Source: Clostridia bacterium (GTDB lineage Bacteria; Bacillota_A; Clostridia; Christensenellales; Aristaeellaceae). Taken from it: a stretch of DNA of 64,000 nucleotides. Below the pieces are notes generated by a model. The model did no database searches. It saw only the letters and a list, made by a program, of their open reading frames with translations, and was not told the origin of the DNA. The position numbers were made by a program, and so were the translations under genes. The stretch covers positions 1 to 64,000 of the forward strand of contig JAFZQK010000034.1 of the NCBI GenBank assembly GCA_017620455.1, in the 5' to 3' direction. Below, in pieces: positions 54,383 through 64,000 of this stretch. Position 1 is the first letter of the stretch; each line of letters opens with the position of its first letter.

Positions 54383-54397
54383 CCCATTGTTGCCCGT

Positions 54398-54471
54398 GGG
54401 ATTATAGCTCAGTTGGTTAGAGCGCCACGTTGACATCGTGGAGGTCATAGGTTCGAGCCCTACTAATCCCA
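54398..54471 (+). tRNA. tRNA-Val (GAC)
   Basis: A 74-base cloverleaf with acceptor GGGATTA/TAATCCC, anticodon loop TTGACAT (anticodon GAC), T arm GGTTCGAGCCC. Discriminator A and no encoded CCA, unlike the tRNA-Thr. Its 3' part is repeated at 54514, 54697 and 55672. Confidence 0.93.
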
Positions 54472-54507
54472 TAGGAAAAGGCACCCCTCGCGGGTGCCTT
54501 TTCCTAT
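54472..54507 (+). terminator. tRNA-Val terminator
   Basis: TAGGAAAAGGCACCC pairs with GGGTGCCTTTTCCTA across a CTCGC loop. Confidence 0.75.
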
Positions 54508-54849
54508 AGGATTGGCTCGAACCTATGACCGACACGATCGTGGAGGCGCAGAGCTGAGCGGTGCCCCTGTGGGGCATTCGCCTTTAGGCGAAAGCAAAGC
54601 GGAAGCGTGGTGAGCAGGAGGAATTTTCGAGCAATGCTTGCATTGCGAAGAAAAGCTCCCCTGCGAACCTGACCGAGCGAACGTAGTGAGCGAGACCATA
54701 GGTTCGAGCCCGTCCAATTTGCTACCCGGTTTGATAGTCTTTGGCATCTCGGTTCCTCGCTTTCGTTCATCTTGGTTGTATTCGTATCCAACTCGCATGA
54801 TTATGCGGTCTCGTAGGATCATTTTTAGAAACACACTCTAATCAATTTC
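54508..54849. repeat. Palindrome-rich tRNA-derived repeat region
   Basis: This gene-free stretch holds an inverted copy of the tRNA-Val sequence GGTTCGAGCC (54514-54523 on the minus strand), then a run of hairpins: GCCCCTGTGGGGC, TTCGCCTTTAGGCGAA and GCAATGCTTGCATTGC. A direct 15-base copy of the tRNA sequence (54697-54711) follows, and then AT-rich sequence to the next gene. The hairpin order recalls the repeat at 33125-33391, but direct sequence identity is low. Confidence 0.55.
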
Positions 54850-55497
54850 TCACATATCAATATGCACTTCACAGTTTGTTATCCCATTCTTTTGTAAATA
54901 TATATTAACAAATTCTTCTGTAGAAGCTGAATAATCATTGTCTTCCATAATCATTATCATTTCGTCCGTAATTCCATTATTTCCTTCTGTCCCACAACCA
55001 TATCCAGGAATAAATTCTTCATCCTTCTGGGGCTGCCATATGCTATCAACCAATTCCTGGTCATCTCTTATTGTATATATTATCTTGTAACAAGAAAATG
55101 AAGTTTTCCCTAATGAAATATGCCTCACTAATTTTTTGTCTTGATACATTCCATATTCGTCAATCCTTGCTACACAGTACACTATCTTTTTATTGTCTGT
55201 TTGATCAACTCGAAACACAAACGGATTGCACATTAGGATAACATCGCCTGATGAAATATAGTCTCCCCGTCCTGTTTGAATAATATAATAATTCTCAAGA
55301 GTGCCCATTAGCTCCAACAATTCAGGATCATGAGTATACCAAATATCTTTGCTAGTTTCACAATGTAGTATTATGCAATCATCCGGCAAATAAAACCCAA
55401 AGTCATATTTCTCTTCCGAATAAGAAGATGTTGTTCCTGTAAAAGTATATATGATACAGATAGTAATAATACTCATAATACTAATAGTTTTTTTCAT
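54850..55497 (-). CDS. Hypothetical secreted protein in tRNA-Val islet
   Basis: A 215-residue protein with a signal peptide (hydrophobic residues 5-22), of no family I recognise. Strongly AT-rich with codon use unlike the neighbours (many ATA, AAT, TAT). The mature part has mixed strands, with DFGFYLPDDCIILHC near its start and four or more cysteines. It is the only full-length gene between tRNA-Val and the displaced tRNA fragment at 55672, so it is the probable cargo of the islet. AGAGGC lies upstream of the ATG. Confidence 0.55.
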   Translation of the reverse strand: MKKTISIMSIITICIIYTFTGTTSSYSEEKYDFGFYLPDDCIILHCETSKDIWYTHDPELLELMGTLENYYIIQTGRGDYISSGDVILMCNPFVFRVDQTDNKKIVYCVARIDEYGMYQDKKLVRHISLGKTSFSCYKIIYTIRDDQELVDSIWQPQKDEEFIPGYGCGTEGNNGITDEMIMIMEDNDYSASTEEFVNIYLQKNGITNCEVHIDM

Positions 55498-55538
55498 TTT
55501 CTCTGCCTCTTTTCCATGATGATTCTTATAGATCTTAT

Positions 55539-55671
55539 CTATTGGTATAAGTTTAACATCTCTTCTATCATATCTTTATCCCAGTTAATTACAACAATAT
55601 CAATGCCATCATAATTATCAATAGCATCTATCAAACTTTGTCTCACATGCGGCCCTATTGCGAATTTCGGA
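55539..55671 (-). pseudogene. Truncated gene fragment at the islet edge
   Basis: A 44-codon minus-strand frame without a plausible start ends at 55539. It encodes a C-terminal piece, RQSLIDAIDNYDGIDIVVINWDKD, that is well ordered and AT-rich like the islet gene. Its upstream end is exactly where the tRNA-Val-like sequence (55672-55686) begins. It looks like the 3' remnant of a gene cut by integration or deletion. Its family is not recognised. Confidence 0.4.
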
Positions 55672-55686
55672 CATAGGTTCCAGCCC
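55672..55686 (+). other. Attachment-like copy of the tRNA-Val sequence
   Basis: CATAGGTTCCAGCCC matches 14 of 15 bases of 54446-54460 inside tRNA-Val. It marks the far edge of the AT-rich islet, two bases before the stop codon of the MATE gene. Reads as a displaced att site. Confidence 0.5.
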
Positions 55687-55687
55687 C

Positions 55688-57052
55688 CTACGCCCCCCGT
55701 CCTTCCTTCATGTGCCGCCAGATCAGGCGGTACATGGTGAAGAAGCACAGGGACGCGCCGGTCAGCTGGCTGATGAACTCCGCCCAGAAAACCCCGTGAA
55801 CCCCCAGGCCCAGCCCGGGCAGCAGCAGCGTCAGCGGCGCCACCAGAAGCACCTTGCGCAGCAGGGAGAAGAACAGGGCGTAGCGGGGATAATTCAGCGC
55901 CACGAAGGTGGACTGCCCCGCCAACTGCAGCGCCATGAAGGGGAAGGCCCCGAAATAGATCCGGGCGCATTCCGCCGCGGTGCGGATCAGGGCCTGATCG
56001 TTGGAGAAAATGCGGATCAGGGGCTCCGGGACGAGCATGACCAGCGCCCACATGCACACGTTGGTGACCAGTCCGCACAGGAACATGAACCAGATGCAGT
56101 CCGACACCCGGCGGTATTCCTTCGCCCCGTAATTGTAGCTCATCACGCTCTGGCCCGCGGCGGTAATGCCGTTGGTGGGCAGGCTCATGATCTCCCGCAG
56201 GGAGTTGATCAGGCTCATGCCCCCCACGTACAGGGTGCTCAGCGCCCCGCCCCAGGCCTTGAGCATGATGTTCACGATGGCCTGGGTCAGGCTGTTGGTG
56301 ACCTTGAAGGTAAAGCCCGTGACGCCCAGCTTCAGGATTGACCGCATTTCTTTCCCGTCGATGCTCAGCTTCTGCAGGCGCAGCGGCGGCTTTTTGCCGC
56401 ACAGGAACAGAAGCACCCACGCCGCGCTGGCGGTCTGGGAAATCACGGTGGCCAGCGCCGCGCCCCGCGCCTTCATATCCAGGACGTAAATGAACAGCGG
56501 GTCCAGCGCGATATTCAGCGCCGCCCCCAGCAGCACCGTCACCATCCCCACCCGGGGAAAGCCCTGGGCGTTGATGTAGGCGTTCATCCCCAGGCTGATC
56601 AGCACCGGCACCGTGCCCAGCACGTACACCTGGAAATAGGAGAGCGCGGCGGGCAGCGTATCCGCGTCCCCGCCCAGCAGGCGCAGCGTCACGGGCGCGG
56701 TGAAATAAAGGACCGCCGTCAGGAACACGCCGATCCCCAGCAGCCCCGTGAACGCCGTTTCCATGATGCGCCGCGCCCGGGCGTCGTCGCCCTCCCCCCG
56801 GGCGATGGTGGCCAGGGTGGCCCCGCCGGTGCTGCACAGATTGGCGAACGCGCCGATGAGCGTGATCAGCGGGAAGGATACTCCGATGCCCGTCAGCGCC
56901 AGGGTGCCGCCGTCGCGCATGCGGCCGATGTACATGCGGTCCACCACGTTATACAGCACGTGCACCAGCTCGGCCAGCATGATGGGCGTTCCCAGCCGCA
57001 TGATCAGGGCCGGCACCGTGCCTTTGGAAAAATCGCCTCTTGCGGCGGACAT
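55688..57052 (-). CDS. MATE-family multidrug/cation exporter
   Basis: A 454-residue MATE transporter with twelve helices in two similar halves. It has the N-half block GTPIMLAELVHVLYNVVDRMYIG and the C-half block NGITAAGQSVMSYNYGAKEYRRV (typical of DinF/NorM-like proteins). Na+ or H+ antiport of cationic drugs or metabolites is known for the family. Start at 57052 with AAGGAAGCGGAG upstream; an earlier ATG at 57094 overlaps the flavodoxin gene and lacks a site. The flavodoxin gene precedes it by 28 bases. Its stop lies next to the islet edge, so its last codons could have changed there. Confidence 0.9.
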   Translation of the reverse strand: MSAARGDFSKGTVPALIMRLGTPIMLAELVHVLYNVVDRMYIGRMRDGGTLALTGIGVSFPLITLIGAFANLCSTGGATLATIARGEGDDARARRIMETAFTGLLGIGVFLTAVLYFTAPVTLRLLGGDADTLPAALSYFQVYVLGTVPVLISLGMNAYINAQGFPRVGMVTVLLGAALNIALDPLFIYVLDMKARGAALATVISQTASAAWVLLFLCGKKPPLRLQKLSIDGKEMRSILKLGVTGFTFKVTNSLTQAIVNIMLKAWGGALSTLYVGGMSLINSLREIMSLPTNGITAAGQSVMSYNYGAKEYRRVSDCIWFMFLCGLVTNVCMWALVMLVPEPLIRIFSNDQALIRTAAECARIYFGAFPFMALQLAGQSTFVALNYPRYALFFSLLRKVLLVAPLTLLLPGLGLGVHGVFWAEFISQLTGASLCFFTMYRLIWRHMKEGRGA

Positions 57053-57512: not shown

Positions 57513-57612
57513 GCCCGATCCCTCCTGTCGTTGCATCCGATTCCGCTTCCATTATAGCAAACCCCGGCGGGAAATGAAAGCGCAGGCGGAAAAAACCGCC
57601 GGCTTTTTTCAG

Positions 57613-57641
57613 TTGAGCGCGCCGTGATTCTATGCTATAAT
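57613..57641 (+). promoter_or_regulatory. Promoter of the deaminase fusion
   Basis: TTGAGC at 57613-57618, a 17-base spacer and TGC-TATAAT (TATAAT at 57636-57641). Confidence 0.65.
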
Positions 57642-57683: not shown

Positions 57684-60146
57684 ATGATCTTTTTTCAGCG
57701 ATTCTACCTGGACCGGGAAAAGGACATCGTGGTGGAGCTGTTCCTGGAAGGCGACAGGATGCACTATCTGATCCGCACCCCCAACCACCATACCGGCAAC
57801 CTGATCTGCAATCTGGCCCGGCTCTGCGGCCTGGAAACGGCGGAGGACGAACAGGGGCTCAAGGTGATCCGGGACGAGATCCCCTGCTATTACGACGGGA
57901 ACAACCGGAAAATGTACATCCTGCGCCTGGGGAACACGAAGATCGCCAACATCTACCCCGACGGCAAGGTGGAGCTGAAAGCCTCCATCCCCGCCATTTC
58001 AAAAACCCTCATGAGCCAGACGAAGGATTACCGCCTGGGCGTGGAAAAGACCATCGTGAAAACCTATATCCGCAGCGACTGCAAATTCCGCGCCGATCTG
58101 CACACCCACATGAACGGGAACCTGCCCCCGGACGCGCTGATCGCCCTGGGGATCGTGCACCAGATCCGCTATCCGTACTATTACGTCAAAAAGCTGAACC
58201 TTCGCTGCACCCTGGACCAGACCGCCCAGCTGGAGGCCGACCGGGCGGAAACGGAAAGCCGGCTGAAGGACGTTTCCCCCACGGACCGGCACCGGGACCG
58301 GCAGATCGACGACCGGACGTTCATCAATTTTGCCGATCTGATTCTGGGCAATCCCGGGGACGCCCCGGGCAACATCGAAAAGATCCGCAATTCCCTCACC
58401 ATCCCCAAGGACGGCCAGGCGGTGTTCGCGGATCTGGAAAAGGTGTACCTTTACCGCTACGTGTTCACGAAGGCCGCGCCGGACGCCCGCCCCTTCAGCG
58501 GCGTCAACACGGACGGCATCCCGGACCGGGAGGTGCGCGCCTACGCGGAGCAGATGCTCCGGGACCGGGAGGACCCCCGCTACCGCCAGAATACCCTGTA
58601 CCAGGATCTGCTTTTGTGGATCGCCCGGGAATACCGCCGGCACGGCATCGTATACGCCGAGATTTCCGATACCGCCCTGCTCAAGCCAGAGGTATTCCCC
58701 GATCAGCTTCGCCAGATCCACGAAATCATGCCCGCCGTCACCCGGGAGACCGGGGTGACGCTACGCTTCCTGGCGGGCATCCGGCGCATCCCGCTGACCC
58801 TGGGGCGCAGCCGGGTCACCCCCAACGATTACCTGGATGAAAACCTGCGCTGCCTGCGGGTCATCGCCGGGGATCCGTATGTGGCGGGCAGCGACATCGT
58901 GGGCGAGGAGATCAACGATATCCTGGAATTGCGCAGCGTGATCCGGGAGCTCACCGCCATCGCCGGGGAGCATCCGGGCTTCGTGATCCGCATCCACGCC
59001 GGGGAAAACGACAGCCTGCGGGGCAACGTGGCCAACAGCATCCGCTGCGTGGCCGACGCCCTGCGCCCGGGGCAGCCCACGCCGGCCCTTCGCATCGGCC
59101 ACGGCCTGTATACCAGCGATCTGGGCGGCGCGAAAGGCAAAAAGCTGCTGGAGGAAATGCGCCGCATGAACGTGACGCTGGAATTCCAGATCACTTCCAA
59201 CGTGCGCCTCAACAACCTGAGCCGCCTGGAGCGCCATCCCCTGCGGCAATACCTGCGCGCCGGCATCCGGTGCGTCCAGGGCACGGACGGCGGGGCGCTC
59301 TACGGCACCAATTCCATCGACGAGGAGCTGAGCCTGGAAAAGCTGCTGAACCTTTCCCATCAGGAGCTGTGCGCCATGCGCCGGGCGGAGGACGGCCTGC
59401 TGGCGGACAGCATGCGGGTGTTCGCGGAGCGCGCCGGGCAGTTCCTTGCCCGCTGCCCCGGCGGGGATATCGCGCGCTTCTACGCCCAGGCCCTGGGAGA
59501 AGGGGCCCATACGCCCCGGGATCTGTGGCGGCAGCCGGGGGGCAAGGTCAGCGCCGAGGAAGCGCTGGCGGACCGCTTTTCCCCGCTGCCGGAGGGCATG
59601 CTGCCCGTGGTGGTGGCCGGCGGCAGCTTCAATTCTTCCGGCCGGCGCACCCAGGTGCAGCCCCGGGACCGGGAGCTGATCGATTCCCTGCTTTCCGTTT
59701 CCGATCCCCGACGGGTGTTCTTCGTGGTGGGCCACACCCTCGCGGGCCAGGAGGGCTATCTGGCGCGTCAGGCGGCGGGGCGTTTTATGGTGTTCGCCGT
59801 GGTGCCGGGCCGCCTCACCCGGCAGGAGCTTGCCCGGCTGCGCGATTCTCAGGTCCGGGCGGTGCTTTCCGACGAAAGCTCCGGCATGGGGCTGTACAAG
59901 TGCTTCGCCAACGAGATCTTCAACCGCATGCCCGCGATGCTTCTGGTGTTCGACGGCAATTCCGCCGCCATGAACCTGATCCAGGAAGCCCGCAACGCCC
60001 AGGGCAAATGCCAGATCTGCCTGAGCTCCCGATCCCGGGGCCTGGCGGCAAAGGCCCGGATGCTGGAGGGATACACCCGGCCTTTGCAGGACGCGGCGGA
60101 GATCCTGGGGCAAATGGCCGGAAAAACAGCGTCTCCCTATGGCTGA
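57684..60146 (+). CDS. Adenosine deaminase-like enzyme fused to a DprA/SLOG-like domain
   Basis: An 820-residue protein in three parts. Residues 1-130 are an unassigned alpha/beta domain. Residues about 135-600 are an adenosine/AMP deaminase-type TIM barrel: metal ligands in ADLHTHMNG (137-145), HAGE (438-441) and a TDGG near 534-537, then SNVRLNN and HPLRQYLRAG. Residues about 632-790 resemble the Rossmann-like SLOG fold of DprA/LOG: VVVAGGSFNSSG, GHTLAGQEGYLARQA, ANEIFNRMPAMLLVF. SLOG domains bind nucleotide-like ligands. Start at 57684 is preceded by GGAAAGG at nine bases. Single-gene unit. Long insertion near residues 165-320 sets it apart from ordinary deaminases. Substrate unknown. Confidence 0.8.
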   Translation: MIFFQRFYLDREKDIVVELFLEGDRMHYLIRTPNHHTGNLICNLARLCGLETAEDEQGLKVIRDEIPCYYDGNNRKMYILRLGNTKIANIYPDGKVELKASIPAISKTLMSQTKDYRLGVEKTIVKTYIRSDCKFRADLHTHMNGNLPPDALIALGIVHQIRYPYYYVKKLNLRCTLDQTAQLEADRAETESRLKDVSPTDRHRDRQIDDRTFINFADLILGNPGDAPGNIEKIRNSLTIPKDGQAVFADLEKVYLYRYVFTKAAPDARPFSGVNTDGIPDREVRAYAEQMLRDREDPRYRQNTLYQDLLLWIAREYRRHGIVYAEISDTALLKPEVFPDQLRQIHEIMPAVTRETGVTLRFLAGIRRIPLTLGRSRVTPNDYLDENLRCLRVIAGDPYVAGSDIVGEEINDILELRSVIRELTAIAGEHPGFVIRIHAGENDSLRGNVANSIRCVADALRPGQPTPALRIGHGLYTSDLGGAKGKKLLEEMRRMNVTLEFQITSNVRLNNLSRLERHPLRQYLRAGIRCVQGTDGGALYGTNSIDEELSLEKLLNLSHQELCAMRRAEDGLLADSMRVFAERAGQFLARCPGGDIARFYAQALGEGAHTPRDLWRQPGGKVSAEEALADRFSPLPEGMLPVVVAGGSFNSSGRRTQVQPRDRELIDSLLSVSDPRRVFFVVGHTLAGQEGYLARQAAGRFMVFAVVPGRLTRQELARLRDSQVRAVLSDESSGMGLYKCFANEIFNRMPAMLLVFDGNSAAMNLIQEARNAQGKCQICLSSRSRGLAAKARMLEGYTRPLQDAAEILGQMAGKTASPYG

Positions 60147-61907: not shown

Positions 61908-61946
61908 AAAGCCGGGGCCGGAGGATGATCCTCCGGCCCCGGCTTT
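61908..61946. terminator. Bidirectional terminator
   Basis: GCCGGGGCCGGAGGAT (61911-61926) pairs with its complement (61928-61943), flanked by A-run and T-run. It separates the lipoprotein gene from the converging PrsA-like gene (stop at 61961). Confidence 0.88.
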
Positions 61947-61960
61947 ATATTGTGCGATCC

Positions 61961-63244
61961 TTACTTTACCTTATCCAGATACAGCTTCACATTCGCGGCG
62001 TCCACCCAGGATTTCACCGTTTCGGTGCTCTTTTCATTCTTCCTGGTGGTCAGCAGCCCGTCGCGGATCGAGGTCCGGACGGCTTCCGTATCCTGCACGC
62101 CTTCCTCCACGTCGGCTACGTAGCGGATGATATGGTAGCCGTAATCGGTTTCCACCGGTTCGCTCACGTCCCCGACGGTCTTCAGCCCCATGGCCGCGTT
62201 GGTGAATTCTTCAAGGAACGGGGCGAAGCCTTCCCGCACGGCATAGCCGTTTTCGGGCATGCCCTTATCCGTATTGTATTCGGCGATCAGGGCGTCGAAA
62301 TCCGCGCCCTCGGCGGTGGCCAGGCCGTACACCTCGTCGGCCTTTTCTTTCACGGCGGCCAGGGCGGGGGTCTTCACCGCGTCCAGCTTTTCCTTGGCCT
62401 CGGTCACGGCGGCGTTAAGCGCGTCCATATCCGCGTCCTCGGCGGCATTGGCGACGGCGTTTTCCGCCGCGGTCAGGGCGGCGCGGGCCTCCTTGATGGC
62501 CTGGCTCTCTTCCTCGGAAACGCCCACCAGGATCTGCTTGACCATCCGGTAGCCCGCCGGCGCGTAATACACGGTGCCTTGGTTGTTGACGGTCTTGCCG
62601 TAGGCGTCCGGGTTCTCTTCGTACTGGGTTTTCGCAGCGTCGGCCTTTTCCGTCAGGGCGGCGGTCACTTCCTCGTCGGTCACCGTCACGTCCGCCGTGA
62701 TGCTCTCTTCCAGCTTCTCAATGGCCACGTCATTTTCCGCGTCCTTCACGAAATCCTCCATGGAGCTCAGCCCATGCTCTTTCATGTAGGCTTCGGCGGC
62801 GGCCGTCAGCTCGTCCCCTTCCAGGGTGCTGTCGCTCAGGAAGGTGCTGATCACCTGCTGCACATAGCTGTCATACTCTTCCTTGGCGTGCTCCTGCACG
62901 TGGGCCTGCTCTTCCTCGGTGAATTCGTACATGCCCATTTCATGGGCCTTCTGACGGACCACCAGGGTGGATACGTACGTGTCCGCGGTATTCTTGATCA
63001 CCGTGTCCGCATCCGTGGGATATTCGCCTTCCATGCCCAGCTGGGCGTAATACTGATTATAGGTCTGATACTGGTTCCAGAGGTTGTTGACGGCGGTGAC
63101 GAAGGTCCGCTTATCCACGGTTTCCCCGTTCACATCGATAATGGTGCGGGCCAGGTCTTTTTCTTCGTTCACCCGGGTCAGGGCGCAGCCGCTGAGGATC
63201 AACGTCAGCGCCAGCAGCAGCACCAGCAAGGATTTTTTCTGCAT
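61961..63244 (-). CDS. PrsA-like peptidyl-prolyl isomerase lipoprotein
   Basis: A 427-residue lipoprotein (lipobox ILSGC, Cys at 20) with an N-terminal SurA/PrsA-like helical chaperone region (AVNNLWNQYQTYN..). A parvulin-type rotamase domain is in two pieces: KQILVGVSEEE (about residues 244-254) and ADFDALIAEYNTDKGMPENGYAVREGFAPFLEE..DYGYHIIRY (about 320-390). Between them lies a 60-residue Ala/Glu/Asp-rich helix. PrsA folds exported proteins at the cell surface. Start at 63244 with GGAGATG upstream; earlier frame extension is unlikely. A DUF896 gene precedes it by 85 bases. Confidence 0.85.
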   Translation of the reverse strand: MQKKSLLVLLLALTLILSGCALTRVNEEKDLARTIIDVNGETVDKRTFVTAVNNLWNQYQTYNQYYAQLGMEGEYPTDADTVIKNTADTYVSTLVVRQKAHEMGMYEFTEEEQAHVQEHAKEEYDSYVQQVISTFLSDSTLEGDELTAAAEAYMKEHGLSSMEDFVKDAENDVAIEKLEESITADVTVTDEEVTAALTEKADAAKTQYEENPDAYGKTVNNQGTVYYAPAGYRMVKQILVGVSEEESQAIKEARAALTAAENAVANAAEDADMDALNAAVTEAKEKLDAVKTPALAAVKEKADEVYGLATAEGADFDALIAEYNTDKGMPENGYAVREGFAPFLEEFTNAAMGLKTVGDVSEPVETDYGYHIIRYVADVEEGVQDTEAVRTSIRDGLLTTRKNEKSTETVKSWVDAANVKLYLDKVK

Positions 63245-63329
63245 CGTCGGGACATCTCCAATCTGTTTTTTATCCAACTTTGATATTATACAGGAAAAAC
63301 GCCAAAACAGCAAGCACAAATTACTGCCG

Positions 63330-63542
63330 TCAGTTGAGCGGCGGCTTTTTCTGCAGTTTTTCGTAGGTGCCGTCCTCCCGCTCGATATACACCTGGTCCA
63401 GCGTGGCCCTGAGGTTCGCCTTGAATTCGTCGATGTACTGCCGGCGCAGCCTCGTCTGCTCCTCCAGTTCGTCCCAGGTGAGCCCCACGGTCTTTTTCTT
63501 CCTGGCCAGCTCGTTGATGCGGTCGATATCACGCTTGTCCAC
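63330..63542 (-). CDS. DUF896 (YnzC-like) protein
   Basis: A 70-residue protein with the DUF896 helical pair, IDRINELARKKKTVGLTWDE and TRLRRQYIDEFKANLRATLD, a three-helix family found across Firmicutes (YnzC in B. subtilis). Function unknown. GTG start at 63542 with GAAAGGAAG about ten bases upstream. It overlaps the upstream membrane-protein gene by 14 bases. 85 bases before the PrsA-like gene, so they may share a transcript. Confidence 0.88.
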   Translation of the reverse strand: MDKRDIDRINELARKKKTVGLTWDELEEQTRLRRQYIDEFKANLRATLDQVYIEREDGTYEKLQKKPPLN

Positions 63543-64000
63543 TTCGTTCGTCTTCCTTTCTCAGCCGCAGGGCCAGCCCTGCCGGCACCGCCAGCACCGC
63601 GATGAACGCGGCGTAAAGCAGATAATGGCTGATCTGGGACCGGTCGATCCTGAACTCGATGAAGACCCCCGCGCCCACCGCCGCGAACACCGCGGCCAGG
63701 GCCGCCCAGGAGAGCGCGGGCCTGCGCTTCACGTTGCGGATGAACAGCACGATGACGCCGCAGCCCAGCAGCAGCATGGACAGGATCATTTCCAGCCGCA
63801 CGAAGGCGTTCACCGTCATGTGCCCGTCCTTGCGCAGGCTTTCCATGAGCACCTGCACCGCCCCGAACAGGATCATGAATTTCAGAAACGTGTTTCCCGC
63901 GCGGCGCTTCGCGCTCAGATCCCGCAGCATGATAATGGCCAGCATCACTGCGGAGAAGGATTCCAGCAGGTAGGTGTTCAGCCGGCCGTCGGACACCAGG
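63529..64000 (-). CDS. Partial membrane protein, Lgt-like C-terminus
   Basis: At least 155 residues of a gene that runs off the window. Five hydrophobic helices are visible. The block LNTYLLES, then a helix, then ESLRKDGHMTVNAFVRLEMILS matches the end of prolipoprotein diacylglyceryl transferases (Tyr-Glu-Ser and a G/E-x-x-R-x-D near the next helix). The extra helices after this are unusual for Lgt. The GTG at 63996 has no ribosome site, so the real start lies outside. Lgt-like identity is tentative. Confidence 0.5.
   Translation of the reverse strand, partial: LVSDGRLNTYLLESFSAVMLAIIMLRDLSAKRRAGNTFLKFMILFGAVQVLMESLRKDGHMTVNAFVRLEMILSMLLLGCGVIVLFIRNVKRRPALSWAALAAVFAAVGAGVFIEFRIDRSQISHYLLYAAFIAVLAVPAGLALRLRKEDERSGQA

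Follow-up and report, generated by a model that had tools for sequence, protein, structure and literature searches.

SLOG-ADA, the product of a gene in the window (the whole 64,000-nucleotide stretch of DNA analyzed here), combines an adenosine deaminase (ADA)-type barrel with a C-terminal domain that appears to be of the SLOG type. The explanation that best accounts for our results, to which we give a probability of about 0.45, is that SLOG-ADA deaminates a phosphorylated adenine nucleotide under the control of a ligand and would work as a one-gene unit. ATP deamination has recently become a theme in bacterial immunity; the architectures worked out for it are two, RADAR and Cad1, and each needs other genes. 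In the open-access literature that we searched, the SLOG-ADA fusion is undescribed; subscription papers fall mostly outside that search, so this is not proof that the fusion is unpublished. The host is probably a bacterium from an animal gut.

Gene and domain architecture

The open reading frame (ORF) is real; it encodes 820 residues, starts at ATG 57684, and ends in TGA. It has the following features, all on the + strand.

57585..57600, +, weak terminator-like hairpin, directly upstream of the promoter-like site
57613..57641, +, promoter-like TTGAGC-17-TATAAT with TG before the -10 (extended -10)
57684..60146, +, SLOG-ADA gene, 820 aa
57684..58085, +, N-terminal domain, residues 1-134; residues 85-127 are the most conserved, e.g., KTLMSQTK
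58086..59483, +, ADA-type barrel, residues 135-600
58101..58109, +, first metal motif, H140-T-H142; N144, two residues on, is at the position of mouse ADA Asp19
58995..59006, +, HAGE, residues 438-441, metal His and catalytic Glu, from the alignment of relatives
59091..59111, +, RIGHGLY, residues 470-476, catalytic His473, from the alignment of relatives
59283..59291, +, T-D535-G536; the Asp295 equivalent is retained and the Asp296 equivalent is Gly
59589..60107, +, putative SLOG-type C-terminal domain, about residues 636-808 (GGSFN, GHTLAGQE, FDGNSAAMNLIQEA), from profile homology to the sister C terminus

A Met aligns with 57684 in all eight relatives compared (the reading of one of them, L012, includes extra sequence upstream), and among the matches listed, homologs are about as long as the window protein. 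For these reasons the alternative GTG at 57624 is probably not the start. The promoter-like site agrees with the consensus at 10 of 12 positions and is a consensus match only; it was the one such site in the 3 kb scanned, versus 0.6 expected by chance. Terminator-like sites in the region numbered 4, versus 2.9 expected. The downstream gene, which is lipoprotein-like and likely starts at ATG 60259, is preceded by its own TATAAT (read by eye). Given this and the promoter-like site of its own, the SLOG-ADA gene is probably monocistronic in the window. At 52 of the 73 loci of relatives, SLOG-ADA and the gene nearest to it upstream share a strand; the gap between the two is shorter than 50 bases at 20 of these 52, so cotranscription is possible at some of them. 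A -10-like match was present in the scanned upstream stretch of 22 of 77 loci, versus 10 in one shuffle, which lends weak support to SLOG-ADA genes generally having their own promoter.

A sister subfamily, reached via locus L122 (24% identity overall to P0001), has the barrel in common with the window's subfamily; 457 proteins matched it. The N-terminal domains of the two subfamilies are homologous (E = 6.1e-9), and no solved structure gave a convincing match to this domain (best E = 0.056). Between HxH and HAGE, members of the window subfamily have about 80 residues more than those of the sister. It is very probable that the protein has three parts: an N-terminal domain, an ADA barrel, and a SLOG-type C terminus. 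One sister-type protein from Ignavibacteriales, P0192 (1,016 aa), has an extra domain, listed as PF15891 in precomputed annotation; this could possibly be a third nucleotide-handling domain in one chain.

The evidence that the C terminus of the window protein is a SLOG-type domain is good but indirect: the window subfamily has no match to a SLOG model, and it is the collinear sister subfamily that matches TRPM-type models. Specifically, Pfam SLOG models matched 0 of 52 members of the window's own subfamily, and no PDB chain was a convincing match to the window-type C terminus. In the sister subfamily, LSDAT_prok ("SLOG in TRPM") was matched by 38 of 57 members (E up to 0.1, best 8.4e-5) and LSDAT_euk by 32 of 57 (E up to 0.1); matches of the sister C terminus to solved TRPM2/TRPM8-type chains were weak (E = 0.17 to 1.3) and fell at one place. 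The window-type and sister C-terminal profiles aligned over 172 columns with a score of 43.0, versus a maximum of 22.1 in 40 column shuffles, and the window-type C terminus matched the full-length sister profile at E = 6.6e-5; the aligned length was 172 to 174 columns over the two comparisons. Compared with ordinary SLOG proteins, the window-type C-terminal profile scored 17.1, versus a maximum of 20.1 in 40 shuffles, and the sister C terminus, with the same references, scored slightly above its shuffles (26.0 versus 22.0). The sequence-only reading of this DNA had proposed a fusion of an ADA-type barrel to a nucleotide-binding-type C terminus, and our results confirm the fusion, with the SLOG part supported indirectly by way of the sister subfamily. 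Its more specific likeness to DprA/LOG folds was not supported: the nearest named models are of the TRPM-type SLOG, and the LOG Glu is absent from 34 of 34 window-type rows.

LOG-type SLOGs are nucleotide hydrolases, and their catalytic motif is PGGxGTxxE. In the window type this motif is replaced by FDGNSAAxNL. The LOG Glu aligns to the residue after N764, or to N764 itself if the alignment is shifted by one; N764 is invariant, as are many other C-terminal residues in the 34 window-type rows. Neither of the two places holds a Glu in any of these rows, which favors ligand binding over hydrolysis in the window protein. The main rival to our explanation is that SLOG-ADA is a bifunctional purine salvage enzyme, in which the barrel would deaminate AMP or N6-modified AMP and a LOG/PpnN-like SLOG domain would free the base and ribose-5-phosphate. 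The hydrolytic activity of LOG-type SLOGs argues for such an enzyme, as does a conserved Asp of the sister subfamily (D689, at least 90%) that lies one residue before the LOG Glu position. It is weakened by the missing Glu and by best-matching models that are TRPM type, not LOG, and we consider it unlikely.

On balance, we think that the SLOG domain is a regulator of the predicted deaminase. In the Thoeris protein ThsA, a SLOG domain is a switch that binds an ADP-ribose (ADPR)-type ligand (PMC12948488). ThsA can also be read in favor of a different arrangement, in which the SLOG domain of SLOG-ADA would capture an adenine-containing signal (of the ADP-ribose type, cyclic, or N6 modified) and the ADA barrel would inactivate or recode it. 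The PF15891-listed domain that P0192 adds fits this arrangement as well.

Active site of the deaminase barrel

The sole Pfam match in the window protein is A_deaminase (residues 313 to 564, E = 1.3e-15), and the barrel also has matches to solved ADAs. An 80-row family alignment shows no variation at H142, H438, E441, H473, or D535, and at least 90% of its rows retain H140. The metal motifs had been described from the sequence as intact, which is correct for HTH, HAGE, and D535; the "TDGG," however, is noncanonical, the second Asp of TDD being Gly.

SLOG-ADAs differ from single-domain ADAs at the position of mouse Asp19. Of the rows readable there, 169 of 171 window-type rows have Asn and 171 of 175 sister-type rows have Ala, whereas all 40 single-domain ADAs have an acidic residue, Asp in 24 and Glu in 16; the rows for this and the next position came from two sources that may overlap, and the 40 ADAs were chosen by motif and length. 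At the mouse Asp296 position, Gly occupies 171 of 172 window-type and 174 of 174 sister-type readable rows, and in the 25 of 40 single-domain ADAs that were readable there, it is Asp (8), Asn (13), or Val (4). Because Asp296 varies among single-domain ADAs too, Asp19 is the better of the two for separating SLOG-ADA from ADA. The nearly constant Gly suggests an unusual base pocket, which would suit deamination of a captured signal.

The deaminase TaqCad1, which has Gly and Asn at the mouse Asp19 and Asp296 positions, deaminates ATP and, weakly, adenosine; restoring both Asp residues increased its activity and did not rescue adenosine deamination (both from PMC12669630). Thus, Asp19 and Asp296 alone do not set the substrate. 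Judging from the barrel residues, we moderately favor a phosphorylated substrate for SLOG-ADA.

A simpler alternative is that SLOG-ADA is an ordinary adenosine/AMP deaminase whose extra domains serve for assembly only. The Pfam A_deaminase match agrees with this, but Asp19 is absent in nearly all rows, and the invariant residues of the C terminus exceed the needs of a spacer. The score of the window protein with the TIGR01430 equivalog model was 44.6 bits, versus a cut-off of 216.55. In a tree of 77 rows (18 window type, 19 sister type, and 40 ADA, with no Cad1 or RdrB sequence among them), a branch with 100/100 support parted the SLOG-ADAs from the 40 single-domain ADAs; that the SLOG-ADAs stand apart, and on a long branch, also argues against an ordinary deaminase. 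Within that side the window type was one group (100/100) and the sister type was not. We regard an ordinary deaminase as improbable; its bearing on the distribution of the gene is taken up below.

Distribution and genomic neighborhood

Of the 7,995 candidates scored in a protein search with the window protein, 5,461 matched; the list of matches comprises the best 120. A scan of species genomes gave at least 546 relatives among at least 595 stretches, a count in which one gene can appear twice because two patterns were used; 80 distinct loci were retained from it, with titles mostly of rumen or gut Clostridia. SLOG-ADA was carried by 7 of 29 genomes of the same genus and by 9 of 60 relatives. 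Of 396 genomes from the order, 11 had a full-length gene of the window type and 1 more had the sister type; of 398 from the phylum, 2 had full-length SLOG-ADA. Among 147 genomes of the family that hosts it, the sister type was found in 4. The distribution of SLOG-ADA is patchy, unlike that of a housekeeping gene. The window protein is 71 to 73% identical to those of three same-genus carriers, and the ortholog of its MATE neighbor is 73 to 74% identical. Old vertical inheritance followed by losses would be expected to give such similar divergence, rather than recent transfer.

Within the genus, SLOG-ADA was the sole ADA-family match in 7 of 29 genomes, a single-domain-size ADA was present in 2, and 20 had no ADA-family match (several of the genomes are incomplete). 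In the seven carriers SLOG-ADA could therefore fill the role of an ordinary deaminase. Against that role, most members of the genus manage with no ADA-family match at all, subject to the same incompleteness, and four of the nine carriers outside the genus also have a single-domain-size ADA.

The neighbors of the gene in the window are a MATE transporter (Pfam), a small flavodoxin-like ORF (by eye), and the lipoprotein-like ORF. No neighbor family was conserved across 89 loci; the largest cluster of neighbors, an ABC-type ATPase, was found at 20 loci in scattered positions. We sampled 138 of 231 eligible neighbors (100 to 560 aa, no more than two genes from the SLOG-ADA gene), leaving out the window and loci L110 and L114-L119. 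With PADLOC at 1e-10, 16 models matched, 12 of them with a single member, and the most frequent, mad3, had 5; with Pfam there were 153 families, the commonest of which, among the 25 listed, was ABC transporter, with 6 members. These sampled neighbors are ordinary metabolic and transport genes, which is a point for a salvage enzyme. No defense island was obvious among the 138 by Pfam or PADLOC, from raw counts without a random-gene control.

The window's adjacent genes are kept in a near-identical genome (G001) and in none of the five other same-genus carriers examined, three of which were on short contigs. In another genus, G683 retains three window genes upstream of its copy of SLOG-ADA. Flanks within 2.5 kb matched on both sides in 57 of 4,465 locus pairs, a number that includes identical loci fetched twice. 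The synteny common to some close relatives would also fit salvage. A universally syntenic housekeeping gene, the case that the sequence-only reading had named as counting against it, is ruled out by the patchiness and the differing locations. No clean empty site was found: the MATE orthologs in G004, G007, and G012 are on contigs other than those of their SLOG-ADA genes, and no other tested window gene adjoins them. Carriage on known mobile elements was likewise unsupported, as our searches did not find SLOG-ADA on phage, plasmid, or IMG/VR viral contigs.

No linked ligand synthase was found near SLOG-ADA. Within the genus, TIR_2 matches were present in 1 of 7 carriers versus 12 of 22 noncarriers; outside it, 6 of 9 carriers had such matches. 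Three same-genus genomes without SLOG-ADA (G009, G017, and G026) had 9 to 13 TIR_2 matches each, in what is a small sample. A signal-making enzyme that is neither linked nor consistently present argues against the barrel having a captured signal as its substrate, and we hold that arrangement to be improbable too.

Two other parts of the window drew our attention. In 54397-55690, a tRNA-Val gene (54397-54472) is followed by a low-GC stretch; near 54700 and 55670, tRNA-like fragments (GGTTCGAGCC type) recur, as judged by eye, and the stretch may have arisen as a small insertion targeted to the tRNA. An ORF at 54850-55497 (- strand) had no Pfam match. Another, at 61925-63283 (+ strand, 452 aa), also had no Pfam match, and opposite it lies a minus-strand ORF, 61961-64000, that a codon-based call gives as coding; the plus-strand ORF is probably antisense to it.

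Proposed function and comparison with known systems

In the ligand-regulated deaminase that we favor, the SLOG domain would bind a nucleotide-type ligand, our leading guess being an ADP-ribose-like, NAD-derived, or phage-altered nucleotide. Ligand on the SLOG domain would alter the activity of the ADA barrel, which would turn adenine nucleotides, most likely ATP or dATP, into inosine nucleotides. Growth or phage replication would then stop, as in Cad1 and RADAR. A role in the response to stress or phage is a tentative proposal to which the genomic context gave no support. More tentative still is a complete one-gene immune or stress system, in which SLOG would sense an infection-linked nucleotide and ADA would make ITP/dITP from ATP/dATP. 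If true, such a system would be a third architecture of nucleotide-deamination immunity, found across many gut and rumen species, and one protein would do the job of type III CRISPR plus Cad1, or of RdrA plus RdrB. With a large family of one-chain SLOG-ADAs, the identity of the ligand and ligand-gated deamination beyond CRISPR and RADAR can be addressed with a single protein.

With canonical ADA (PF00962 and TIGR01430), SLOG-ADA has in common the barrel, HxH, HAGE, GHG, and the metal-binding Asp; it differs in the loss of Asp19, in its two extra domains, and in forming a separate group in the tree.

RdrB, the large ATP deaminase of RADAR, has an N-terminal extension and an insertion in its catalytic core (PMC9994260). 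SLOG-ADA is also large and N-terminally extended, with an insertion in the core, a likeness of layout that does not imply homology of the parts. Unlike RdrB, it has a C-terminal SLOG domain and no adjoining RdrA: there is no RdrA AAA+ ATPase in the window, as had been said of it before, and no conserved ATPase partner at the 89 loci. No RdrB-named model matched in PADLOC or in the other profile libraries, whose RdrB content is unconfirmed. With no partner gene, membership in RADAR is unsupported, and the comparison is one of analogy only.

Cad1/CAAD (CARF-ADA), a type III CRISPR effector, resembles SLOG-ADA in that a single chain carries both an ADA barrel and a putative ligand-binding domain of the Rossmann type. 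The catalytic His, His, Glu, His, and Asp of the ADA fold are present in SLOG-ADA, which is also altered, like Cad1, at the mouse Asp19 and Asp296 positions. The PADLOC model CARF5--CARF_ADA matched the window protein (1.9e-5) in the deaminase part only, with the alignment starting at model position 414 (199 to 339 in four relatives), and all 57 sister members matched it at E up to 0.01. This match is what would place SLOG-ADA in Cad1 or RADAR proper. However, no CARF model was among the Pfam matches of the window protein and 52 window-type members, there is no conserved ATPase partner, and none of 38 genomes, which do not include the window's own assembly, exceeded the cut-off of the type III Cas10 (Cmr2) model TIGR02577, the one model tried; a carrier (G025) gave the single subthreshold match. 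We therefore rejected the identification of SLOG-ADA with Cad1, and true membership in either family is very improbable. The two also differ in domain order, SLOG being at the C terminus of SLOG-ADA and CARF at the N terminus of Cad1, and in the Asp296 position, which is Gly in SLOG-ADA and Asn in Cad1.

TRPM-channel SLOG (LSDAT) domains and ThsA are comparable to SLOG-ADA at the other end of the protein, where the sister C terminus has its LSDAT matches. The domain that SLOG is partnered with in SLOG-ADA is a deaminase, not the channel or NADase of those proteins.
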